DNA of 64,000 nt. Source: Shinella yambaruensis (GTDB taxonomy: Bacteria > Pseudomonadota > Alphaproteobacteria > Rhizobiales > Rhizobiaceae). The stretch lies in the NCBI RefSeq assembly GCF_022899355.1, contig NZ_JALJCK010000002.1, positions 620,001 through 684,000 on the forward strand. The letters are read 5' to 3'. The translations under genes and the position numbers were made by a program. Below the pieces are notes generated by a model. The model was not told where the DNA came from. It saw nothing but the letters and a program-made list of their open reading frames with translations, and searched no databases. Below, piece by piece: positions 34,378 through 45,373 of the stretch. Position 1 is the first letter of the stretch; each line of letters begins with the position of its first letter.

Positions 34378-35694
34378 ATGACCGATCTTTTCGACGCCGC
34401 ACCGCGCACCGGCGCCATGCCGCTCGCCGCGGAGCTGCGCCCGGCGAGCCTGGACGACGTGATCGGCCAGGAGAAGATCATCGGCGAGGGCACCATGCTG
34501 CGCCGGCGCATCGCGGCCGGAAGGCTCGGCAGCATCGTGCTCTACGGCCCGCCCGGCCTTGGCAAGACGTCGATCGCGCGCGCCATCGGCAACATGCTCG
34601 GCAAGAACTTCCGCCCGCTGCATGCCGCGCACAACAACGTGGCCGACATCCGCAAGATCGCCGACGAGGCGCGCATGCGGCCGACCCTGCTCTTCGCGGA
34701 CGAGGTGCATCGCTTCAGCGCGACGCAGCAGGACCATCTCCTTGCGCTCTGCGAGGAGGGCGTCGCCGACTTCATCGGCGCGACGACCGGCAATCCCTAC
34801 CATACGCTGACGCCCGCGCTCATCTCCCGCTCCACCATATTGAAGCTAGAGCCGCTGATGCTGGAGGAGATGGAGGAAGTGGTGCGGCGGGGGCTTCGCC
34901 ACCTTGCGGCGCGCGGCATCGCGGTGGAGCTGGAACCCGACCAACTGCGCCGCATCGCCGGCCGCTCCGGCGGCGATGCGCGTCGCGCGCTGACGGTGCT
35001 TGAAAGCCTTGCCGTCGGGCACGCGCCGGGAAAACCCGTCGTCATCACCGAGGCGATGGTCGAGGAGGCCTATGCCGCCGCGCCCGTCAACCACGACCGG
35101 TCGGGCGATGCGCATTACGATGTGGTCTCGGCCTTCGTGAAATCGATGCGCGGCTCCGATCCCGATGCGACGCTCTACTGGCTTGCCCGGCTGATCCATG
35201 GCGGCGAGGACCCGCGCTACATCGCCCGCCGCATCATGATCCACGCGTCCGAGGATGTCGGCCTTGCCGACAACACGGCACTGCAGACGGCGGTGGCCGC
35301 GCTGCATGCGGTGGAGAAGATCGGCTATCCCGAGGCGCAGATCATCCTCGCCCATGCCGCCCTGCACGTCGCCCGGGCGCCGAAGTCGAACTCCGCCTGC
35401 CGCGGCATTTCGCTTGCTCTCGCCCATGTGGCGAAAGAGGCGCCCTCGGCGGTGCCGATGCATCTGCGCGACGCGCATTACAAGGGCGCGGCGGCGCTCG
35501 GCCATGTCGGCTATGCCTTCCCGCATGACGACGGACGGGGCTGGAGCGAGCAGGTCTACGCGCCGGACGTTCCGCGCGGCGCCTTCTACCAGAGCGACGC
35601 CCGCGAGGCGGGGACCTTCGAGCGGCGGGCCGACGAGCACTGGGACCAGATCACCGGCCGGCCGACGCCGCGCCGCTTCGGCGAGAAACGCTGA
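34378..35694 (+). CDS. rarA: Replication-associated recombination protein A (RarA/MgsA)
   Basis: AAA+ ATPase of 438 residues acting at stalled replication forks. Visible are LRPASLDDVIGQEKIIGEG, Walker A YGPPGLGKTS, Walker B LLFADEVHRFSATQQDHLL, sensor ATTGNPYHTLTPALISRS and the C-terminal MgsA/RarA domain (LARLIHGGEDPRYIARRIMI; APKSNSAC). Walker B reads DEVH where DEIH is usual, a mild change. It is a single-gene unit, divided from the organosulfur operon by a terminator and convergent with the CDP-alcohol transferase gene 3 bp away. Confidence 0.93.
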   Translation: MTDLFDAAPRTGAMPLAAELRPASLDDVIGQEKIIGEGTMLRRRIAAGRLGSIVLYGPPGLGKTSIARAIGNMLGKNFRPLHAAHNNVADIRKIADEARMRPTLLFADEVHRFSATQQDHLLALCEEGVADFIGATTGNPYHTLTPALISRSTILKLEPLMLEEMEEVVRRGLRHLAARGIAVELEPDQLRRIAGRSGGDARRALTVLESLAVGHAPGKPVVITEAMVEEAYAAAPVNHDRSGDAHYDVVSAFVKSMRGSDPDATLYWLARLIHGGEDPRYIARRIMIHASEDVGLADNTALQTAVAALHAVEKIGYPEAQIILAHAALHVARAPKSNSACRGISLALAHVAKEAPSAVPMHLRDAHYKGAAALGHVGYAFPHDDGRGWSEQVYAPDVPRGAFYQSDAREAGTFERRADEHWDQITGRPTPRRFGEKR

Positions 35695-35697
35695 AGG

Positions 35698-36294
35698 CTA
35701 ACGTCCGGTGAGGCCGACCCGGACCCGGTTGACCACCGTCCAGGCGAGCAGCACGCAGGCCATCGGCTGGATGTGCCACGTCCAGGCCGGCAACGTGCCG
35801 AAACCGGCGACGAGCGCGCCGAGCGCACCGAAGAGGAAGGCCCGGTCGCTCTTGCCCATCGGCCCCTCGTAGCTGCGGCCGTTGCCATGGGCGACGCCGA
35901 GCACGCCGGCGAACTCCGTCAGCGCCGAAAGGAAGACGATGGCCGTGAACCACGGCAGGGAAAACGGCGCCACCAGCGCGAAGGGCAGGTAGAGCGCGGC
36001 ATCGGAGACGACATCGGTGATCTCGTTGAGATAGCCGCCGAGCGGGCTCTTCTGGCCGTGTTCGCGGGCGAGCATGCCGTCGATGGCGTTGAGCCCCATG
36101 CGCAGCAGCATCCAGACGGGAACGAGCGCGAAAAGGGCGGACGCCGGATTGACGAGAAGGAGCGCGCCGATCCCCACCGAGACGAGCGCGGCGATCAGCG
36201 TCACCTGATTGGCCGTGACACCCATGGCCGCAAGCCGTCCCACCAGGGGACGAAGCAGGTTCTGGAAGGATGATTTCAGTTTATAGATCGACAT
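35698..36294 (-). CDS. CDP-alcohol phosphatidyltransferase (YnbA-like)
   Basis: Integral membrane protein of 198 residues with about six helices. The CDP-alcohol transferase motif is present but altered: N69-A-I-D72-G73-M-L-A76-R77, then G86, N90, D94 and D98. The usual first and third Asp positions are Asn (N69, N90), while DG, AR, G86 and D94 are kept. It should join CDP-diacylglycerol to an alcohol headgroup in the inner membrane. The start at 36294 fits the family N-terminus (SIYKLKSSFQNLLRPLVGRL). It diverges from five lipid genes, the same set as E. coli ynbABCD. Confidence 0.83.
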   Translation of the reverse strand: MSIYKLKSSFQNLLRPLVGRLAAMGVTANQVTLIAALVSVGIGALLLVNPASALFALVPVWMLLRMGLNAIDGMLAREHGQKSPLGGYLNEITDVVSDAALYLPFALVAPFSLPWFTAIVFLSALTEFAGVLGVAHGNGRSYEGPMGKSDRAFLFGALGALVAGFGTLPAWTWHIQPMACVLLAWTVVNRVRVGLTGR

Positions 36295-36310
36295 GTCAGC
36301 TCGAATCCGC

Positions 36311-36343
36311 TCGATTGCGTGCAATAAAAGAGGATGCAATCGA
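36311..36343. promoter_or_regulatory. Perfect 8-bp palindrome between the divergent lipid genes
   Basis: TCGATTGC (36311-36318) and GCAATCGA (36336-36343) flank a 17-bp spacer in the 119-bp region between the minus-strand ynbA-like gene and the plus-strand operon. A half copy (GTGCAATA) lies in the spacer. The position suits a shared operator for both transcripts. Confidence 0.5.
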
Positions 36344-36413
36344 CATGAAATCAACTGCAAACATGCGTCCTCATCCGTATAGGTGCTGAGGTTTCCGCAG
36401 GAGAGATGACAGC

Positions 36414-38150
36414 ATGATCGAATCCGCCTTTGCGAGCCATGACGGCGTGGAGCTTTTCTACCGTGCCTGGCCCGCCCGTTCCGGCGCGGCGAAGGGCGCG
36501 GTCGTTCTGCTGCACCGCGGCCATGAGCACAGCGGCCGGGTGGCGCATATTGCCGAGGAGCTCGGGCTCGACGACTTCGCCTTCTACGCCTGGGATGCAC
36601 GCGGCCATGGCCGGTCGCCCGGCGAGCGCGGCCATTCGCCGTCCTTCGCCCATTCGGTACGCGATCTCGACTGCTTCGTCCGCCATATAAGCGAGACCGG
36701 CGGCTTTTCCATGGACCAGGTCGCCGTCGTCGCCCAGAGCGTCGGCGCCGTGCTGGCCTCCACCTGGGTGCATGACTATGCGCCGGATATCCGCGCGCTG
36801 GTGCTGGCTTCCCCGGCCTTCGACGTGAAGCTCTACGTGCCCTTCGCCAAGGAGGGCATCGCGCTCTGGCAGAAGCTCAAGGGCACGTTCTTCGTCAATT
36901 CCTACGTCAAGGCCCGCTTCCTGACGCATGATCCGCAGCGCATCGCCTCCTTCGAGGCCGATCCGCTGATCACCCGCCCCATCGCCTCCAACATCCTCCT
37001 GGAACTCTACGAGGCGGCAGACCGGGTGGTCGCCGATGCGCGCGCCATCACGGTGCCGACGCAGCTTCTCGTCTCCGGCAGCGATTTCGTCGTGCGCCAT
37101 GCGCCGCAGCACCGCTTCTTCGAAAATCTCGGCAGCACGATCAAGGAGCGCCATGTGCTGCCCGGCTTCTACCACGACACGCTCGGCGAGCGGGACCGGG
37201 CGAAGGCGCTCGAAAAGGTGCGGACCTTCCTCCTCCAGCGTTTCGCCGAACCGCCCGTTGTGGCCGACCTGCGGCGTGCCCATCTTTCCGGCTACACCCG
37301 CGACGAGGCCGACCGGCTGGCGACGCCGCTGTCGCTGTTCTCCCCGCGCGGGCTCTACTGGGCACTGACGCGCGCCTCGATCCGCCTCGGCGGCCTCTTC
37401 TCCAGGGGCATCGAGACGGGTTTGCGCACCGGCTTCGATTCCGGCTCCACGCTCGACTATGTCTATGAGGACGAGGCCCGCGGCCTCGGCCCCGGCGGGC
37501 GGCTGATCGACCGGCAGTTCCTCGACGCGATAGGCTGGCGCGGCATCCGCCAGCGCAAGGTCCATCTGGAGGCGCTGATCGGCACGGCGCTGGCGCGCCT
37601 GAAGGCCGAGGGGCGGCCGCTGCGCGTGCTCGACATCGCCGCCGGCCACGGGCGCTACGTGCTCGATGCGGTCGCGGCGTCCGAGGTAAAGCCGGAGAGC
37701 ATCCGCCTGCAGGACTATTCGCCGATCAACGTGGAGAAGGGCACGGCGCTGATCACCGAGCGCGGCCTCTCGGACGTGGCGGAGTTCCACCGGGCGGACG
37801 CCTTCGACACGGAAGGGCTTGCCGCGATCGCCCCGCGGCCGACGCTTGCGATCGTTTCCGGCCTCTACGAGCTCTTCCCGGACAATGCCCTGATCGAGGC
37901 CTCGCTGGCCGGCCTCGCGCGGGCGACGGAGCCGGGCGCGCTGCTCCTCTATACCGGCCAGCCCTGGCATCCGCAGCTTGAGATGATCGCCCGCGCGCTG
38001 ACCTCGCATCGCGGCGGCGAGGCCTGGATCATGCGCCGACGCACCCAGCAGGAGATGGACCAGCTCGTGGCGGCCGCCGGCTTCCGTAAGGTCGAGCAGC
38101 GCATCGACAAATGGGGCATCTTCACCGTCTCGCTGGCCGAGCGCATCTGA
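36414..38150 (+). CDS. Alpha/beta-hydrolase - SAM-dependent methyltransferase fusion (YnbC-like)
   Basis: Two-domain cytoplasmic protein of 578 residues. Residues 1-290 form an alpha/beta-hydrolase related to monoacylglycerol lipases (LLHRGHEHSGR; nucleophile Ser in VVAQSVGAVL; Asp in SGSDFVV; His in LPGFYHDTLGE). Residues 330-575 are a class I methyltransferase with motif I VLDIAAGHGRYVLDAV at about 405-420. It opens the plus-strand operon, 119 bp from the divergent transferase gene. It may deacylate a phospholipid and methylate a lipid or headgroup; neither reaction is known. Confidence 0.82.
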   Translation: MIESAFASHDGVELFYRAWPARSGAAKGAVVLLHRGHEHSGRVAHIAEELGLDDFAFYAWDARGHGRSPGERGHSPSFAHSVRDLDCFVRHISETGGFSMDQVAVVAQSVGAVLASTWVHDYAPDIRALVLASPAFDVKLYVPFAKEGIALWQKLKGTFFVNSYVKARFLTHDPQRIASFEADPLITRPIASNILLELYEAADRVVADARAITVPTQLLVSGSDFVVRHAPQHRFFENLGSTIKERHVLPGFYHDTLGERDRAKALEKVRTFLLQRFAEPPVVADLRRAHLSGYTRDEADRLATPLSLFSPRGLYWALTRASIRLGGLFSRGIETGLRTGFDSGSTLDYVYEDEARGLGPGGRLIDRQFLDAIGWRGIRQRKVHLEALIGTALARLKAEGRPLRVLDIAAGHGRYVLDAVAASEVKPESIRLQDYSPINVEKGTALITERGLSDVAEFHRADAFDTEGLAAIAPRPTLAIVSGLYELFPDNALIEASLAGLARATEPGALLLYTGQPWHPQLEMIARALTSHRGGEAWIMRRRTQQEMDQLVAAAGFRKVEQRIDKWGIFTVSLAERI

Positions 38151-38157
38151 GGCGGCC

Positions 38158-39492
38158 ATGGGGGAGGGCGTCGCATCTGTCCTTGCCGTCGATCGCCGCG
38201 CGGTTTTTCGCGCGGCAGCGCTCTGGCTCGCCGTCCTGGCGCCGTTCTTCTACCTGACCTACGGCTTTTCCAACTGGCTGGCTGCGCAGCGGGCGGACGT
38301 GCCGAATCTCGCGTTCGGCTGGGAGCGGCACATCCCCTTCCTCGCCTGGACGATCCTGCCCTACTGGTCGATCAACGCCTTCTATGCGCTCTCGCTCTTC
38401 GTCAACGAGACGCCGGCGGAGGTCGGCCGGCTGGCGCGGCGCTACCTCACGGCACAGGTCGTCGCCGTCCTCTGCTTCATCGCCTTTCCGCTGCAGGCGA
38501 TCTTCGTGCGGCCGGAGACGCAGGGGCTGCCGGGCTTCCTGTTCGACGTGCTCGGCGGCTTCGACAAGCCGTTCAACCAGGCCCCTTCGCTGCATGTCGC
38601 CCTGCTGGTGATCATCTGGGATCACTGGCGCATGCGGCTGCGGGGAAAGACGCTGGCGGTCTGGCATGCCTGGAGCTTTCTGATCGGCGTCTCCGTCCTC
38701 ACCACCTGGCAGCATCACAGCATCGATATCCCGACCGGCGCGCTGCTCGGCCTCTCCGCCCTCTGGCTGTTCCCGGCCGGCCGGCCGTCGCCGCTGGCAG
38801 GGTTTCGCCTGACGGTCGATCCGAAGGCGCGGCGGCTCGCCGTCTGTTATGGCGCCGGCGCGCTGGTCTTCCTGTTCCTTGCGGTGTGGACGACGTTCGG
38901 CTCCGGGGCGGGGTTGCTGCTGCTCTGGCCGGCGCTTGCCCTCGCCATCGTCGCGCTCGCCTATGCCGGTGCCGGGCCGGATGTGTTCCAGAAGGAGGGC
39001 GATGGCCGCATCAGTCTCGCAAGCCGCTGGCTGCTGATGCCCTACAGGCTCGGTGTGCGGGTGAATGCCTGGTGGTGGACGCGGCGCCTGCCGGCCGCCG
39101 TCGAGATCGCTGACGGCGTCTTCCTCGGCCGGGTGCCGACGCGGCGTGCCCTTTCGACCTATGCCGCCGTCATCGACATGACGGCGGAGCTGCCGGGCCT
39201 TGCCGTTCCCGGCCTTTCCTGGCGCGCCTTCCCGGCGCTCGATCTGCTGCCCCTCTCCGCCGCCCGCATCCGCGAGGCGGCGCTCGCCGCCGAGGAAGCG
39301 GGGCGGCATGGGCCGGTCCTCGTCTGCTGCGCGCTCGGCTTCCAGCGCAGCGCGCTCGTCGCCGCCTGCGTCCTGATGCGGACGGGGCTTGCGGCCAGCG
39401 CCGTCGCGGCCGTCGCCCAGATCAAGGCGAAGGGGCGGCCGGTGCATCTTGCGCTGGAAACCTATGCCGCGATCGAGGAGGCGGCGCGATGA
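38158..39492 (+). CDS. PAP2 phosphatase - dual-specificity phosphatase fusion (YnbD-like)
   Basis: Membrane protein of 444 residues. The N-terminal two thirds are a PAP2-type lipid phosphatase with several helices (motifs NQAPSLHVALL and HHSIDIPTGA). The C-terminal 150 residues are a dual-specificity phosphatase with catalytic loop CCALGFQRSA (C-x5-R). Both domains could remove phosphate from a phosphatidyl-alcohol phosphate, as PgpB or PTPMT1 do for phosphatidylglycerophosphate. It starts 7 bp after the hydrolase-methyltransferase gene and overlaps the next by 4 bp. Confidence 0.83.
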   Translation: MGEGVASVLAVDRRAVFRAAALWLAVLAPFFYLTYGFSNWLAAQRADVPNLAFGWERHIPFLAWTILPYWSINAFYALSLFVNETPAEVGRLARRYLTAQVVAVLCFIAFPLQAIFVRPETQGLPGFLFDVLGGFDKPFNQAPSLHVALLVIIWDHWRMRLRGKTLAVWHAWSFLIGVSVLTTWQHHSIDIPTGALLGLSALWLFPAGRPSPLAGFRLTVDPKARRLAVCYGAGALVFLFLAVWTTFGSGAGLLLLWPALALAIVALAYAGAGPDVFQKEGDGRISLASRWLLMPYRLGVRVNAWWWTRRLPAAVEIADGVFLGRVPTRRALSTYAAVIDMTAELPGLAVPGLSWRAFPALDLLPLSAARIREAALAAEEAGRHGPVLVCCALGFQRSALVAACVLMRTGLAASAVAAVAQIKAKGRPVHLALETYAAIEEAAR

Positions 39493-39926
39493 CGGACTGG
39501 CGGGCGATCGTCGCGGATGCCATCCGGCGCCTCCGGCGCAACGGCCTTGCCGGCGGCGCGGCGGCGCTGCTGATCCTCGCCGCCGCGCCGCCGACGGCCG
39601 GCGCCCATGGTTTCACCGGGCCGCTCGCCTGGGGGCTGCTGCTTGCCTCCTGCCTCGTGCCGCTGGCATTTTCGGTGCATCTCCTGTTCGATGCCGCGCT
39701 GTTCCGGCTCGCCGCCTCCCATGACGGGGAAGCGGCGGGGCTTGCGGCCATCGACGACGTTCTGGCGCGCATGGGGCTTCGTGCCCGGGGCGGCGTTTCG
39801 GCAACGCTGCCGGAGCGCCTCCGGGGATGCCGGCGGCTCCTCTGGCTGCAGCGGATCGCATTGGCGGTCGCCGTCGCGCTCTACCTCATCCTGCTCCTCG
39901 ACGGGATGGAGGGAGGCGGGGCATGA
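39489..39926 (+). CDS. Small membrane protein of the lipid cluster, unknown function
   Basis: Protein of 145 residues with three hydrophobic segments (AGGAAALLILAAAPPTAG; GPLAWGLLLASCLVPLAFSV; IALAVAVALYLILLLDG) and a basic amphipathic middle. It overlaps the phosphatase fusion and the acyltransferase by 4 bp on each side, so it is translated with both. I do not recognise the family. It may be an accessory subunit of the lipid-modifying enzymes. Confidence 0.65.
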   Translation: MTDWRAIVADAIRRLRRNGLAGGAAALLILAAAPPTAGAHGFTGPLAWGLLLASCLVPLAFSVHLLFDAALFRLAASHDGEAAGLAAIDDVLARMGLRARGGVSATLPERLRGCRRLLWLQRIALAVAVALYLILLLDGMEGGGA

Positions 39927-40576
39927 GCGCGAACGGCGCATCCCTGTTGCAGACGGTATCCGGCGCGGTGCTCGCCGGCCTTTCGCGCGCCGTCACCGGC
40001 GTGCGGCCGATCTGGGCCGGCTCGGCGCCCTACGGCCGGCAACGCATCTATTTCGCCAACCATGCGAGCCATGGCGATTTCATCCTGGTCTCCACCTGCC
40101 TGCCCTTTGCCGAACGCCGCCGCACGGCCGCCGTCGCCGGGGCGGACTATTGGAATGCCGGCCCGATCCGCCGCTTCATTTCCGGCAGGATGCTGCGCAC
40201 GGTGCTCGTCGAGCGCAACTGGGTGGAGCGCACCGCCGATCCGATGCAGGTGATGCTCGCCGCGCTCGATGCGGGCCAGTCCCTGATCTTCTTTCCCGAG
40301 GGCACGCGCAACATGACGGAGGAGCCGCTCCTGCGCTTCCGCTCCGGCCTCTACAATCTCGCGGCGCTTCGCCCGGATGTCGAGCTGGTGCCCTGCTGGA
40401 TCGAGAACATGTCGCGCGTCCTGCCGAAGGGTGCGCTCCTGCCGGTCCCGCTGCTCTGCCGCGTCGTCTTCGGCGCCCCGCTGGTGCTTCAGGCCGGGGA
40501 GGAGCGGAAGGCTTTCCTCGAGCGCGCCCGCGCGGCGCTTCTTGCCCTTGCGCCCCGAAAGGATGGAACCCGCTGA
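39923..40576 (+). CDS. Lysophospholipid acyltransferase family protein (PlsC-like)
   Basis: Glycerolipid acyltransferase of 217 residues with the H-x4-D motif in FANHASHGDF, the FFPEGTRN motif III and a likely membrane-associated N-terminus. It should acylate a lysophospholipid or lysophosphatidate. It overlaps both neighbours by one to four bases. E. coli ynbABCD lacks this gene, so the cluster here can make its own phosphatidate for the CdsA-like enzyme encoded next. Confidence 0.85.
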   Translation: MSANGASLLQTVSGAVLAGLSRAVTGVRPIWAGSAPYGRQRIYFANHASHGDFILVSTCLPFAERRRTAAVAGADYWNAGPIRRFISGRMLRTVLVERNWVERTADPMQVMLAALDAGQSLIFFPEGTRNMTEEPLLRFRSGLYNLAALRPDVELVPCWIENMSRVLPKGALLPVPLLCRVVFGAPLVLQAGEERKAFLERARAALLALAPRKDGTR

Positions 40577-41505
40577 TGAGCGACGACACGCGTCTTTTCC
40601 TTGGCCTCGTCTCGGTGCTCGTCATCGCGAGCCTCGTTGCCGGCGTGCTTTCCTGGCGCAGCGAGAAACCGCTGCCGGCGACGCTCGAAAACCTCAATGC
40701 CCGCATCAAGGCCTGGTGGATCATGGTGGCAGGCATCAGTGTCGCCTTCCTGTTCGGCACGGGCGGCGTGATCCTGCTTTTCGCTTTCGTCTCCTTCGCG
40801 GCGCTGCGCGAATACGTCACCCTCACCAACACGCGCCACGCCGACCGCTGGACGCTGCTCGGCATGTTCCTGATCATCGTGCCGGTGCAATACTACCTGA
40901 TCTGGATCGACTGGTACGGGCTCTATTCGATCTTCATCCCCGTCTACTGCTTCCTCGCCATGCCGGCGCTGACGGCCATGCGCGGCGACACGTCCCGCTT
41001 CCTCGAACGGGTCAGCGAGCAGCAATGGGGCATCATGCTGTCGGTCTATTGCATCAGCCATGTGCCGGCGCTGGTCACGCTGCCCATTCCCGGCAACGAG
41101 GGGCGGGGCCTGCTGCTCATCGCCTTCCTCATCGCCACCGTGCAGGGCAGCGACGTGCTGCAGTACATTTTCGGAAAGCTCTTCGGCAGGCACAAGGTCG
41201 CGCCGAGCATTTCGCCGTCGAAGACCTGGGAAGGGCTGGTCGGCGGCATTGCCAGCGCTTCGCTGCTCGGTGCTGGGCTCTACTGGCTGACGCCGTTCTC
41301 GCCGTTCGAAGCCGGCGGGCTCGCGGCGCTCGCCTGCATCATGGGCTTCTTCGGCGGCCTCGTCGCCTCCGCCATCAAGCGCGACCGCGGGGTGAAGGAC
41401 TGGGGCCACATGATCGAGGGCCATGGCGGCATGCTCGACCGCGCCGACAGCCTCGTCTTCGCCGCCCCCGTCTTCTTTCACATCGTGCGCTACGCCTGGA
41501 CGTAA
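40576..41505 (+). CDS. Phosphatidate cytidylyltransferase (CdsA/YnbB-like)
   Basis: Integral membrane enzyme of 309 residues that makes CDP-diacylglycerol from phosphatidate and CTP. It has eight or so helices and the full CDS signature: SPSKTWEGLVGG, SAIKRDRGVKDWGHM, EGHGGMLDRADSLVF. It is probably a second CdsA beside the housekeeping copy. With the acyltransferase before it and the CDP-alcohol transferase opposite, it supplies the activated lipid. It is the last gene of the operon. Confidence 0.9.
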   Translation: MSDDTRLFLGLVSVLVIASLVAGVLSWRSEKPLPATLENLNARIKAWWIMVAGISVAFLFGTGGVILLFAFVSFAALREYVTLTNTRHADRWTLLGMFLIIVPVQYYLIWIDWYGLYSIFIPVYCFLAMPALTAMRGDTSRFLERVSEQQWGIMLSVYCISHVPALVTLPIPGNEGRGLLLIAFLIATVQGSDVLQYIFGKLFGRHKVAPSISPSKTWEGLVGGIASASLLGAGLYWLTPFSPFEAGGLAALACIMGFFGGLVASAIKRDRGVKDWGHMIEGHGGMLDRADSLVFAAPVFFHIVRYAWT

Positions 41506-41823
41506 CCAGCGGCGTCTGCCCATCGGCGGGAGCCTGCCGAGACGGGCCGAGGCGCCGATGCCGCGGGAAAACGCCGCGCTCGGCCGGTACGCGCAGCCTT
41601 CATGCGCCGGCGGCCACCGACATGTCCGGCGGCATCGGTGGCAGCACGGCGCGCCAGCCCCGGCCGGCAGTGGAAATGGCGGCGCTCGGCGGCAAGTTGC
41701 GCTCGCTCGGCGTTTCGGGCATTGATGCCGCGCTGCCATCGCCGATCGGCGCGGAACGCGCCGGTTTCATCCTCTCGGCTTTCGGCAAAACCAATCTGTG
41801 ATCAACACCATGGGAGATTTTTC
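41506..41823 (+). other. Intergenic region with possible gene remnant
   Basis: A 318-bp gap. An ATG at 41622 opens a 59-codon frame to 41801 (MAALGGKLRSLGVSG; DAALPSPIGAERAGFIL). Its smooth, protein-like composition resembles a C-terminal fragment of a larger enzyme, but no family is recognised and no ribosome-binding site is obvious. No terminator was found for the lipid operon. Confidence 0.25.
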
Positions 41824-42162
41824 ATGATCCAGCGTATCAAGCCCGGCAAGCGCTTCTGCCAAGCCGTCGTCGTCAACGGCGTCGTCACCACGGCCGGCGT
41901 CACTGGCAGCGGTGCCGACACGACCGCCCAGACCCGCGACATCCTGGCCACGATCGAGGGCCTTCTGGCCGAGGCCGGTACTTCCAAGGCCAAGCTGATC
42001 AGCGCCAACATCTGGCTGCGCGACATCGCCCATTTCGCCCAGATGAACGACGTCTGGGACCAGTGGGTCGACGCGGATAACCTGCCGGTCCGCGCAACGG
42101 TCGAGGCCCGCCTCGCCGCGCCGGAACTGCTGGTCGAAATCCAGGTCACCGCGCTCGTCTGA
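41824..42162 (+). CDS. RidA-family protein
   Basis: Protein of 112 residues: RIKPGKRFCQAVVVNGVVTT, DILATIEGLLAEAGTSKAKL, ANIWLRDIAHFAQMNDVWD and PVRATVEARLAAPELLVEIQ, with the family Arg in PVR. GGGAG lies 10 bp before the ATG. It appears to be a single-gene unit and differs from the RidA at 28992-29384. It likely removes reactive imines, but no partner enzyme is adjacent. Confidence 0.85.
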   Translation: MIQRIKPGKRFCQAVVVNGVVTTAGVTGSGADTTAQTRDILATIEGLLAEAGTSKAKLISANIWLRDIAHFAQMNDVWDQWVDADNLPVRATVEARLAAPELLVEIQVTALV

Positions 42163-42566
42163 ACCGCGCGGTGACCCGTTCGCGGGTGAAGACGCGGGGC
42201 CGCGCGCATGCGGCCCTTGCAATTTCGATGATGCTCTTCAACCTGGGGTCTGGCAACGGGCTGGCCCGAAGGCGCGGCTGGGCACCATCGCCCCGGCGGT
42301 GGACAACCCACGCTACGCCCTACCGGCGCCAGGCCCGCCACCGACCTCAACCGCCCGCTGCTCTCCAGCAGGCGTCCCGGTCCACGGGTGCGAACCCCAA
42401 GCGTGCCACGAAAGCCCGCCACGTTCGCACGACCCCTTTGGCGTTGAAATTTCACGCTCTTCCGCTCCATGCTCCACGCACGCCCGGACAATCCCGCCCC
42501 GGTATCAGCCTTCCCGCACATCCAGGACTTCCAGCTCAGACAAATCCGTGGTTTACAAAAGGCCAG
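42163..42566. other. Non-coding stretch before the CRISPR array
   Basis: 404 bp without a convincing gene on either strand. The first half is GC-rich and has no recognisable motif. The final 60 bp before the first repeat are slightly more AT-rich (GTTTACAAAA at 42551-42560) and would be the leader if the array is transcribed on the plus strand. Confidence 0.35.
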
Positions 42567-42861
42567 GTCACCTCCCTGCGGAGGTGTGGATTGAAACGCG
42601 AAGGGTCAAGGTCGCTGTGCCGAAGCGCAGCGGTCACCTCCGTGCGGAGGTGTGGATTGAAACGACGAAGGCCACGCGATAGCGAACGCCGCCGGGGGCA
42701 CCTCCCTGCGGAGGTGTGGATTGAAACTGGGTGACGTCGAGATAGGCCTCGTCGAGCGACGGATCGCCTCCTTGCGGAGGGGCAGGGATTGAAACGTCTC
42801 GAGGAAGCGGGATTTGGCGTAGAGGTTCCTGCCGTCTCCATGTTGGAGTGCTGCCCGAAAC
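42567..42861 (+). CRISPR. Short, decaying type I (I-C-like) CRISPR array without cas genes
   Basis: Three 31-nt repeats at 42567-42597, 42633-42663 and 42697-42727 are near identical. Each has a CACCTCC/GGAGGTG stem around a four-base loop and ends TGGATTGAAAC, as in type I-C repeats. A fourth at 42763-42795 is divergent, with two extra bases before ATTGAAAC. A fifth at 42834-42861 is heavily decayed (GTCTCC...GGAG...CCCGAAAC). Spacers are 35, 33, 35 and about 38 nt. Decay increases towards the 3' end, so the leader is probably upstream of 42567. No cas gene is in the window. Confidence 0.8.
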
Positions 42862-42943: not shown

Positions 42944-44260
42944 TCAGGCCGGCTTCAGCACGTCGGCTAGCGCGTCCACCAGCATGTCGGCGTTCTCGCG
43001 GGAGAAGACGAGGGGCGGGCGGATTTTCAGGATGTTGGCGTTGGGACCGGAGGCGCTGATCAGGACGCGGCGGGCGCGCAGGCCGTTGACGATGCGGGTC
43101 GTCAGGGCGGCGTCGGGCTGTTTCGTCGCGGGGTCGGCGACGATCTCGACGCCGATGAAGAGGCCGGAGCCGCGGATGTCGCCGAGGGCCGGGTGGAGGC
43201 GGGCAAGGCCTTTCAGGCCGTCCATCAGGTACTGGCCGACCTCCAGGGCGTTCTGCTGCAGGCCTTCCGTCCGGATCGTGTCGAGCACGGCCTTGCCGGC
43301 GGCGGCGGCGACCGGATTGCCGCCGAAGGTGTTGAAGTAGCGGGCGCGGGGGCCGAACTCGGCGACCACGTCCGGGCGCAGCACGATGCCGGCCATCGGG
43401 TAGCCGTTGCCCATCGGCTTGCCGATCGTCACCATGTCGGGGGAGACGCCGTGGCGCTCGAAGCCCCACATGGCCTCGCCGGTACGGCCGAAGCCGGGCT
43501 GCACCTCGTCGGCGACGAAGAGGCCGCCCGCGCTATGGATCGCATCCACCGCCGGCTTCAGAAAGCCTTTCGGACCGGCGAAGATGCCGTCGCTGGAAAA
43601 GATCGTGTCGGTGATCAGCATGGCCGGCTTGATGCCGTGGCGCTTCAGGTCGGCAATGGCGGCGCTGACGTCGCGGCCGAATTTCTCCATCATCTCTTCC
43701 GGCGAATGGCGGTAGCTGTCCGGCGCCGGCACGGTGCGCACATGGGCCCCGAGCGTCACGGCCTCGCCGAGCGAGGGGGAGAATTCTGCGACCGCGCTCG
43801 TCAGGCCGTGATAGGCGAGTTCCGTCGCGATGATGCCGGTGCCGCCGGTGACGAAGCGGGCGATGCGCACGGCAAGGTCGTTGGCCTCGCTGCCGGTGCA
43901 GGTGAACATGGCCTGGCTGAGGTCGCCGGGGAAGGTGGCGGTCAGTGCCTCGGCATAGTCGACGATGCCTTCGTGCAGGTAGCGCGTATGGGTGTTGAGT
44001 ACGGCGGTCTGGCGGGTGATCGCCTCCACGACGCGCGGATGGCAATGGCCGACCGAGGCGACGTTGTTGTAGGCGTCGAGGTATCTTTCGCCCGCAGCGT
44101 CATAGAGGAAGACGCCTTCGCCGCGCACGAGGTGCAGCGGCTTTTCGTAGAACAGGCGATAGGCGGGGCCGAGCACCTTTTCCCGGCGGGCGATCAGCGC
44201 CCGTTCGGCCTCGCTGAGCCGTTCGAAATCCTCGCGCGAAAATGCATTCACCATCGACAT
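42944..44260 (-). CDS. Class III aminotransferase-fold phospho-lyase or aminotransferase
   Basis: PLP enzyme of 438 residues of the class III (AGXT2-like) fold: NNVASVGHCHPRVVEAI, TCTGSEANDLAVRIAR, FVADEVQPGFGRTGEAMWGF and the PLP lysine in VTIGKPMGNGYPMAG. The start at 44260 lies 2 bp after the stop of a kinase-like gene, so the two are cotranscribed. Human AGPHD1 (hydroxylysine kinase) and AGXT2L2 (5-phosphohydroxylysine phospho-lyase) are the same pair, and AGXT2L1 acts on phosphoethanolamine. A phospho-lyase is therefore more likely than a true transaminase. Confidence 0.72.
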   Translation of the reverse strand: MSMVNAFSREDFERLSEAERALIARREKVLGPAYRLFYEKPLHLVRGEGVFLYDAAGERYLDAYNNVASVGHCHPRVVEAITRQTAVLNTHTRYLHEGIVDYAEALTATFPGDLSQAMFTCTGSEANDLAVRIARFVTGGTGIIATELAYHGLTSAVAEFSPSLGEAVTLGAHVRTVPAPDSYRHSPEEMMEKFGRDVSAAIADLKRHGIKPAMLITDTIFSSDGIFAGPKGFLKPAVDAIHSAGGLFVADEVQPGFGRTGEAMWGFERHGVSPDMVTIGKPMGNGYPMAGIVLRPDVVAEFGPRARYFNTFGGNPVAAAAGKAVLDTIRTEGLQQNALEVGQYLMDGLKGLARLHPALGDIRGSGLFIGVEIVADPATKQPDAALTTRIVNGLRARRVLISASGPNANILKIRPPLVFSRENADMLVDALADVLKPA

Positions 44261-44262
44261 GA

Positions 44263-45312
44263 TCAGGCCTCGGAAAGGTTGGGCACGAGCCTCTTCAGCC
44301 CGGCGGGGGTGAGATCGCCTATGTTCTGCAGGCCGCGCCAGGCGGTGGCGTGGTTGCGCATGATGTAGTCCCGGTTTTCCGGGAAGCGGGCGGAGCGCCA
44401 TTCGGCGATGATGACCGACATGGCCAGCCGGCAGCGCGTCAGGAGCGGCAGCAGCTCGATCTCGCCGGGCTCCAGCGCGCGCGCCGACAGGAAGCCGGCG
44501 AGGAAGGCGCCGGTGCGCGCCGCCCAGTTGTCCGTCGCGAGATGGTAGGAGAGGGCGACGGCGAGGTCGTTGACCAGCGGCGCATGCACCATGTCGCCGA
44601 AATCGATGATGCCCACCACCCGCGTCGGCTCCGCCGGATCGAGCAGGATGTTGTGCGGGTTGAAGTCGTTGTGGATGATCTGCCGCCGCGTGAGGCCGGT
44701 GATGGCGGGAAGGGCGCGCTCGAATTCGGCGAGCACGGTTTCCACCTGCGCCCGCCGCTCGGGCGCGACATGGTCGACGACCGCGCAAAGGTCGAGCGTG
44801 TGGGAAATGTCCCACATCAGCTTTCCGGCCGGCGGGCGGCCGTCGTAGTTCGCAAGGCCAAGGCCGAGTTCGGCGAGCGCGCGGCCGACATTGCGGCTCT
44901 GCGCCTCGGAGACGGGCGTGCGGTACTGCAATTCGCCGTCGAGGAAGGTGAGGAGGCGCATGATGCGCGGGCCGTCGGCGGTGGCAAGCGCATGGCTCGG
45001 CTCGCCCGCTTTCGTCGGAACGAGCCGCGGCACGGGCACGGCCGGGGCGGCGGCGGCAAGGTGCAGCAGCGCGCCGTCCTGGAATTCCAGCGCCGCGGGG
45101 TCCTCCGCCGGGTTGGCGATCTTCAGGACGAAATCGGTGCCGTCCGACCTTGTGAAGAGGAACGTCTCGTCCCGTTCGCTGGAAAGCCGCTTCACTGCGC
45201 CGGAGAGGCCATAGACCGCGGCGACGGCGGCCTCGGCATCGGGGAGCGCCGTCGCGCTCCAGGTCGCCGACATCGAATCCGTCTTCTTGGTTGCCGGCGC
45301 TGGCTGCGTCAT
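44263..45312 (-). CDS. Phosphotransferase of the APH/hydroxylysine-kinase family
   Basis: Kinase-like protein of 349 residues with the aminoglycoside-phosphotransferase fold: FVLKIANPAED (ATP Lys), catalytic loop IIHNDFNPHNILLD and metal-binding IIDFGDM. It phosphorylates small alcohols such as homoserine, choline or hydroxylysine in this family. The ATG at 45312 is preceded by GGGAGC. The phospho-lyase-like enzyme follows 2 bp later, suggesting that an amino alcohol is phosphorylated and then eliminated to an aldehyde, ammonia and phosphate. Confidence 0.75.
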   Translation of the reverse strand: MTQPAPATKKTDSMSATWSATALPDAEAAVAAVYGLSGAVKRLSSERDETFLFTRSDGTDFVLKIANPAEDPAALEFQDGALLHLAAAAPAVPVPRLVPTKAGEPSHALATADGPRIMRLLTFLDGELQYRTPVSEAQSRNVGRALAELGLGLANYDGRPPAGKLMWDISHTLDLCAVVDHVAPERRAQVETVLAEFERALPAITGLTRRQIIHNDFNPHNILLDPAEPTRVVGIIDFGDMVHAPLVNDLAVALSYHLATDNWAARTGAFLAGFLSARALEPGEIELLPLLTRCRLAMSVIIAEWRSARFPENRDYIMRNHATAWRGLQNIGDLTPAGLKRLVPNLSEA

Positions 45313-45373
45313 GCTTGCTCCCTGGAGCATTTCCGCCTCTCTTCGAATCGCGAAAACGCTCTGCTTGTTCTAC

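Follow-up and report, generated by a model that had tools for sequence, protein, structure and literature searches.

Positions 35698-41505 of a 64,000-nucleotide stretch of Shinella yambaruensis DNA (contig NZ_JALJCK010000002.1, positions 620,001 to 684,000; the whole stretch is called the window below) contained six intact, uninterrupted open reading frames (ORFs) encoding YnbA, YnbC, YnbD, a small membrane protein (tmX), an acyltransferase (AT) and YnbB. The cluster is a real, conserved and mobile phospholipid module, and it probably encodes a modular, horizontally spread phospholipid pathway in which AT, YnbB and YnbA form the core and YnbC, YnbD and tmX are additions. Pairwise comparison revealed full-length homology with the E. 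coli proteins, with identities of 44% for YnbA, 41% for YnbB, 56% for YnbC and 37% for YnbD; the best segment of YnbC was 98% identical to Shinella granuli. An earlier interpretation made from the letters of the window (the sequence-only reading) had described six genes, ynbABCD plus two more, five of them with overlaps of 1-4 bp or gaps within 7 bp. Both the count and the spacing agreed with the ORFs and coordinates found here, as ynbC and ynbD were 7 bp apart and the overlaps were 4 bp (ynbD/tmX), 4 bp (tmX/AT) and 1 bp (AT/ynbB). Judged by homology, the CdsA-like gene is ynbB itself, and the genes beyond ynbABCD are those of AT and tmX. The same genome carried additional genes of both transferase types, three with CDP-OH_P_transf and one, on another contig, with CTP_transf_1, so the six-gene cluster was a surplus set.

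The distribution of the genes was surveyed in 397 Pseudomonadota genomes from 232 genera, with YnbC scored by PF12147 (Methyltransf_20, its methyltransferase), YnbA by a YnbA profile at E values up to 1e-20, full-length YnbD at E values below 1e-140 and tmX by an iterated profile at 15 bits, which also picked up a second, weaker tmX-like ORF, likely in the wrong frame, in a few loci. PF12147 was patchy, occurring in 31 genomes and 14 genera. YnbA was found in 42 genomes, among them all 31 with YnbC; full-length YnbD was present in 30 of the 31 and in none of the 366 genomes without YnbC, while matches to one half of YnbD appeared in 19 further genomes. The association of YnbC with YnbD gave Fisher p values of about 3e-44 by genome and 2e-20 by genus, both of which ignore phylogeny. 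Beside YnbC in the 31 loci were YnbA (31), YnbD (29), tmX (29), AT (27) and YnbB (27), and all six genes lay within 7 kb in 26 genomes; with that number, chance clustering was set aside as an explanation. YnbB was encoded elsewhere in the other four genomes. Three of these, which were Rhizobium-like, had it next to AT, and in one Rhizobium-like genome a faint YnbA-like ORF (61.7 bits) preceded the distant AT/YnbB pair. A separate YnbD-tmX pair was seen in one genome (G176). Among 80 named loci, all six genes were together in 52 and YnbA was present in 79, although these were the top 80 of at least 560 and, judged by identity, all closely related to the window, so that counts on them are biased. 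The flanking genes varied between groups of loci, and neighbour clustering of 39 loci gave no family beyond the six that was common to more than seven loci (a 17-locus cluster was tmX). Co-occurrence across genomes had been named by the sequence-only reading as a way to check its proposal, and the genes do co-occur; the survey and the E. coli homology also bore out its claim that they form one module matching ynbABCD.

Smaller sets of the genes were nested within the six. YnbA without PF12147 occurred in 11 genomes, and in nine of them YnbA, YnbB and AT stood side by side; eight had a strong YnbA and the ninth (L156) a distant one at about 75 bits. One of the 11 (L151) contained broken pieces of YnbA and YnbB. 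In the last of the 11, a lone divergent YnbA with an Ala/Asn motif (L148:8743-10064) lay beside a gene that, on visual inspection, looked like a small-molecule cytidylyltransferase. On a cyanobacterial plasmid of Pseudanabaena, YnbA-YnbB-AT was followed by a 314-aa Methyltransf_20 protein that lacked the hydrolase part and was 37% identical to the methyltransferase half of YnbC. The order was A-B-AT-C-D-tmX on a Citrobacter plasmid, and a Burkholderia plasmid record carried all six genes. Fusobacterium vincentii had C-A-B, with AT and YnbD not found within the 15.7 kb examined. On a Moraxella osloensis plasmid (L203:6260-8752), YnbA and the hydrolase part of YnbC were in one ORF and the remainder of YnbC sat behind an in-frame stop, which made it a fusion, though an interrupted one. 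Because the YnbC-less genomes and the Pseudanabaena plasmid kept AT, YnbB and YnbA, the simplest reading is that these three are the core and that the methyltransferase, the hydrolase and the YnbD-tmX pair are additions. Similarly, the simplest reading of the E. coli ynbABCD genes, for which 4579 of the 5426 complete genomes of that species gave some match and 4242 a match with coverage of 80% or more, is that they are a reduced form from which AT and tmX were lost or are lacking. The YnbC-less core loci, the survey and the Citrobacter plasmid led us to abandon the idea that the four genes of E. coli are the ancestral state. The Shinella cluster had been called an expanded ynbABCD, but six genes are the usual complement and E. 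coli looks like the reduced case.

The core genes also had a neighbourhood of their own in one enterobacterial-type genome (L154:6149-12703), where ydbH-ynbE-ydbL-ynbA-ynbB-AT were on one strand with azoR beyond; ynbABCD of E. coli K-12 also adjoins azoR. Together with YhdP and TamB, YdbH is counted among the proteins that outer-membrane lipid homeostasis requires (PMC8593681). The presence of ydbH-ynbE-ydbL ahead of the core genes makes a link between the making and the moving of lipids testable.

The most distinctive member of the core was YnbA. It matched Pfam CDP-OH_P_transf (PF01066) with 34 bits against a cut-off of 22. The signature of the CDP-alcohol transferases is worded as D1xxD2GxxAR...GxxxD3xxxD4 (PMC6506517), and in phosphatidylinositol phosphate (PIP) synthase Mg-1 is held by D1, D2 and D3, Mg-2 is at D3 and D4, and the role of base is presumed to fall to D4 (PMC6506517, PMC4634129). 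YnbA departed from this signature, with N69..D72 and N90..D94 placing Asn at D1 and D3 and keeping Asp at D2 and D4. This is a new point, absent from the sequence-only reading. All four residues were invariant in 25 of 25 non-redundant YnbA sequences, as were Q81, K148, R151, R190 and other polar residues. Over all YnbA loci the pair was Asn/Asn in 119 of 121, the others being the Ala/Asn of L148 and one locus near a contig end (L089) with no pattern; the same two Asn were found in Fusobacterium and Pseudanabaena. Loci of other CDP-alcohol transferases had Asp/Asp in 31 of 32 and no pattern in one, where these controls were not drawn at random but were the highest-scoring PF01066 matches, and a pattern filter had been applied to both groups. 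With Asn at D1 and D3, YnbA is, by its motif, a divergent relative of the superfamily and not a canonical member. Among solved structures, PIP synthase 6h53 headed the list for the YnbA profile (E 5.5e-12, nearly the whole protein), and the nearest NCBIfam models were archaetidylinositol phosphate synthase (E 6.4e-19) and PIPSynth (E 5.7e-13). The invariant R190 aligned with R195 of PIP synthase, which is phosphate-binding (PMC4634129), and the invariant R151 was one residue off R155. R94, S132 and K135 of PIP synthase had no match in the YnbA alignment, and myo-inositol-phosphate synthase (PF07994) was found in none of the 31 YnbC genomes as compared with 5 of 14 control genomes. Taken together, R190 and R151, the missing inositol-phosphate residues and the absence of PF07994 point to an acceptor that would be an alcohol with its own phosphate, other than inositol phosphate.

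The other two core proteins carried catalytic motifs that were conserved across each family. YnbB matched CTP_transf_1 with 230.1 bits (cut-off 24) and contained KR..KD..GHGG.DR.D, which we take to be the C-terminal signature of CTP_transf_1/CdsA. AT matched Pfam Acyltransferase with 62.4 bits (cut-off 23) and carried NHx4D from residue 46 and FPEGTR from residue 124; its score with the NCBIfam model of 1-acylglycerol-3-phosphate acyltransferase was 37.6 bits, below the cut-off of 102.95. E. coli YnbB makes CDP-diacylglycerol (CDP-DAG) in vitro (PMC7018664), yet in another study it failed to complement a cdsA knockout; its overproduction raises MPIase, and the ynbB knockout had no growth or MPIase defect (PMC6362211). 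A role of YnbB as a dedicated CDP-DAG supply for YnbA fits these data, because YnbB cannot feed the bulk lipids and yet always accompanies YnbA. The self-contained CDP-lipid supply proposed by the sequence-only reading is thus consistent with the E. coli work, namely CDP-DAG synthesis in vitro (PMC7018664) and no replacement of CdsA (PMC6362211).

YnbC was a fusion of a hydrolase (Hydrolase_4, 237.6 bits, cut-off 27) and a methyltransferase (Methyltransf_20, 493.5 bits, cut-off 21). S109, D224 and H254 were invariant in 17 of 17 members and are predicted to form a catalytic triad, a role read from the fold family. The structural model had a pLDDT of 86.6, and its best fold match was monoglyceride lipase of M. 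tuberculosis. The methyltransferase half contained an invariant loop of the DxAxGxG type (D407, A409, G411 and G413). The simplest candidate for its substrate is the core product or the headgroup of that product, since Pseudanabaena carries the methyltransferase beside the core without the hydrolase. Two other Methyltransf_20-like proteins had different neighbours: one on a Kosakonia cowanii plasmid (L204) was beside acyl-carrier, ketosynthase, dehydratase and ketoreductase genes, and one in Moraxella adjoined a patatin-like phospholipase. Given these neighbours, an acyl-group substrate for Methyltransf_20 is also possible.

In YnbD, the motifs PSLH (143-146), QHHxxD (185-190) and CALGxxRS (391-398) were invariant or nearly so in 27 members, with C391 and R397 of the CX5R loop invariant in all 27; the residue before the catalytic Cys was Cys in more than 90% of members and His in E. 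coli. The window YnbD matched NCBIfam PRK12361, scored 19.4 bits with DSPc, below the cut-off of 33.5, and matched no PAP2 model. At a permissive E value of 0.5 the 27 members gave matches to DSPc (27), PAP2_3 (18, best 2.4e-8), PAP2 (PF01569, 17) and PAP2_C (3). In the model (pLDDT 89.3), the PAP2 residues were on one side and the dual-specificity phosphatase (DSP) domain came after the last helix. Lysine plus arginine reached a density of 0.17 on the DSP side as against 0.05 on the opposite side, and all 27 sequences were biased in this direction; the loop borders were set from the model after the window sequence had been viewed. From the model layout and this charge bias, YnbD looks two-sided, with a cytosolic DSP domain and a periplasmic PAP2 site. 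The 50 best fold matches listed were all to the DSP half, PTPMT1 among them. The sequence-only reading had called YnbD a PAP2-DSP phosphatase; the DSP fold and CX5R loop agree with this, whereas the PAP2 half, by its motif and the matches to PAP2_3, which presumably covers Aur1-type transferases, may instead be a phosphotransferase. Proteins resembling half of YnbD also occurred (L157, L158, L159 and L162), some PAP2-only with about 200 aa and one a DSP protein that by reading ran into a lipid-kinase-like domain. The small protein tmX had two strongly hydrophobic segments and no match in Pfam or NCBIfam. The 29 survey loci in which YnbD adjoined YnbC all had tmX beside YnbD, as did 71 of the 78 named loci that contained YnbD.

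From the observed gene content, conservation, co-occurrence, motifs and modules, we infer every reaction proposed here for this organism, together with the acceptor phosphate and the sidedness of YnbD. On the cytosolic side, AT would acylate lyso-phosphatidate to phosphatidate, and YnbB would convert it to a dedicated CDP-DAG pool. YnbA would then transfer the phosphatidyl group to an alcohol probably bearing its own phosphate, yielding phosphatidyl-X(-phosphate). The methyltransferase half of YnbC would methylate the phosphatidyl-X lipid or its headgroup, and the hydrolase half might remove an acyl chain or clear a by-product. In YnbD, the cytosolic DSP half could remove the extra phosphate, as PTPMT1 does on phosphatidylglycerol phosphate (PGP), while the periplasm-facing PAP2 half may act on the outer-leaflet lipid as a phosphatase or, by its motif, a headgroup transferase; tmX would be a small partner of YnbD. 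Of the complete route proposed earlier, AT, the CdsA-like enzyme and the CDP-alcohol transferase stood as a conserved unit, and the phosphatase and hydrolase turned out not to be obligatory, given the YnbC-less genomes and Pseudanabaena. A methylated phospholipid, as proposed with that route, is a plausible product.

Several observations weigh against this pathway. YnbA lacks two of the four metal-binding Asp by alignment, so its activity cannot be assumed; its scores were below the NCBIfam cut-offs (68.5 against 180 bits for archaetidylinositol phosphate synthase and 49 against 170 for PIPSynth), and the unmatched PIP synthase residues count here as well. The methyltransferase half of YnbC matched solved structures weakly (best E 5e-4 by profile and 0.0018 by single sequence), neither these matches nor the fold comparison gave it a named function, and the PAP2 half of YnbD had no fold match among the 50 best listed. 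AT and tmX are not next to ynbABCD in E. coli. Organisms without YnbC dispense with the phosphatase, and there may accordingly be no extra phosphate. In a 2020 study, E. coli YnbD failed to complement mutants lacking either C55-PP phosphatase or PGP phosphatase and had "no function yet ascribed" (PMC7413402). A literature search outside subscription journals and preprints returned nothing that treats the entire pathway, which is no claim of absence from print. A bolder proposal, which we advance only tentatively, is that YnbA represents a distinct transferase class with a metal site rebuilt by Asn for D1 and D3, which together with its own AT and CDP-DAG synthase would make an undescribed phospholipid class, with optional methylation by Methyltransf_20 and processing by YnbD on both membrane faces; the system would be carried by plasmids, reach Pseudomonadota, Cyanobacteriota and Fusobacteriota, and be reduced in E. 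coli K-12.

Four other explanations were weighed against the proposed pathway. The MPIase results would fit a route to a pyrophosphate glycolipid of that kind, in which CDP-DAG and a sugar-1-phosphate would give a sugar-PP-DAG processed by the PAP2 half; CdsA makes GlcNAc-PP-DAG, and YnbB overproduction raises MPIase (PMC6362211). A phosphate nucleophile would depend less on the canonical metal and base site, matching Asn at D1 and D3. We consider this route unlikely because MPIase and growth were normal in the ynbB knockout (PMC6362211), 847 of the 5426 complete E. coli genomes had no ynbABCD match, the catalytic base D4 was kept in all 25 YnbA sequences, and the methyltransferase and lipase would be left unexplained. 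The closeness of YnbA to archaetidylinositol phosphate synthase and PIPSynth and the PIP synthases at the top of the solved structures are what a phosphatidylinositol(-phosphate) pathway of the kind found in actinobacteria or Bacteroides would predict, possibly with imported, phosphorylated inositol. Its chance is very small, as the absence of PF07994 from all 31 YnbC genomes argues against plain phosphatidylinositol, the curated cut-offs were not reached and R94, S132 and K135 were unmatched.

The cluster might instead duplicate the ordinary phosphatidylglycerol (PG) and cardiolipin route, with YnbA as a spare PGP synthase and YnbD as a spare PGP phosphatase. The CDP-DAG chemistry would be compatible, and PTPMT1, found among the 50 best YnbD fold matches listed, is a PGP phosphatase. 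It is stated to be part of cardiolipin synthesis (PMC3542197). Such a duplicate has only a small chance of being correct: the best YnbA profiles were of the inositol-phosphate type and pgsA gave only 15.9 bits, PG needs no methyltransferase, and E. coli YnbD did not rescue PGP-phosphatase-deficient cells (PMC7413402). The two changed metal-ligand positions could also mean that YnbA is degenerate and non-catalytic, the lipase, acyltransferase and phosphatases being the working parts of lipid turnover or remodelling, and the presence of deacylating and reacylating enzymes in one operon agrees with this. Unlike a decaying protein, though, YnbA had D2, D4, Q81, K148, R151 and R190 invariant in 25 of 25 sequences and was retained where YnbC and YnbD were missing, which makes remodelling quite improbable.

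Table 1. Coordinates of the lipid genes and the intergenic gap in the window.
Feature	Position	Strand	Description	Basis
ynbA	35698..36294	-	CDP-alcohol phosphatidyltransferase-like membrane enzyme, 198 aa	Pfam, E. coli YnbA identity, profile
ynbA-ynbC intergenic gap	36295..36413	.	119 bp between divergent genes; promoters presumed there	coordinates
ynbC	36414..38150	+	monoacylglycerol-lipase-like hydrolase fused to class I SAM (S-adenosylmethionine) methyltransferase, 578 aa	
ynbD	38158..39492	+	8-helix PAP2-type membrane domain and C-terminal dual-specificity phosphatase domain, 444 aa	
tmX	39489..39926	+	small membrane protein, 145 aa, no Pfam/NCBIfam family; partner of ynbD	
AT	39923..40576	+	PlsC-type lysophospholipid acyltransferase, 217 aa	Pfam Acyltransferase, motifs
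ynbB	40576..41505	+	CdsA-like phosphatidate cytidylyltransferase, 309 aa	CTP_transf_1, E. coli YnbB identity

A promoter-like consensus had a single match in 35600-41900, on the minus strand at the start of ynbA (36299-36270), which is weak evidence with 0.3 matches expected. Genes for a RarA/MgsA-type ATPase and an ABC ATPase upstream of ynbA, and a class III aminotransferase beside an APH-type kinase at 42944-45330 on the minus strand, showed no obvious connection with the lipid genes. At 42560-42727, a 38-nt direct repeat ending GTGGATTGAAAC occurred three times, at spacings of 66 and 64 nt, in the manner of a small CRISPR array; the single Cas1 detected in the genome was on a different contig.

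If the proposed pathway is correct, four genes of the best-studied bacterium are a reduced form of a dedicated lipid pathway, which would add one more phospholipid to those known, along with a novel type of active site for CDP-alcohol transferases. E. coli K-12 ynbABCD (b1408-b1411) has homologues of four of the six genes at 37-56% identity and shares the N..D, N..D motif of YnbA, but its genes are in the order A-B-C-D, all co-directional and without AT or tmX, whereas ynbA of Shinella is divergent. PIP synthase (PgsA1 of M. tuberculosis; 6h53 of M. kansasii) belongs to the same superfamily as YnbA, which has the equivalent of R195 and differs in the Asn at D1 and D3, in the unmatched R94, S132 and K135 and in falling short of the curated cut-off. 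Monoacylglycerol lipase (Rv0183, human MGLL) shares the fold of the N-terminal half of YnbC (Foldseek E 2e-17, 24% identity) but is not fused to a methyltransferase. The phosphotransferases of PAP2_3 and PAP2_C, presumably Aur1 and sphingomyelin synthase, share the PSLH and HHxxD motifs with YnbD; PAP2_3 matched 18 and PAP2_C 3 of the 27 members, but PF01569 also matched 17 and the window YnbD matched neither phosphotransferase model. PTPMT1 has the DSP fold and CX5R loop of YnbD (3rgq, ranked 14th among the 50 best Foldseek matches listed, E 1.9e-4), whereas YnbD is fused to a PAP2 membrane domain, is matched better by other DSPs and in most members has Cys where a His would precede the catalytic Cys.

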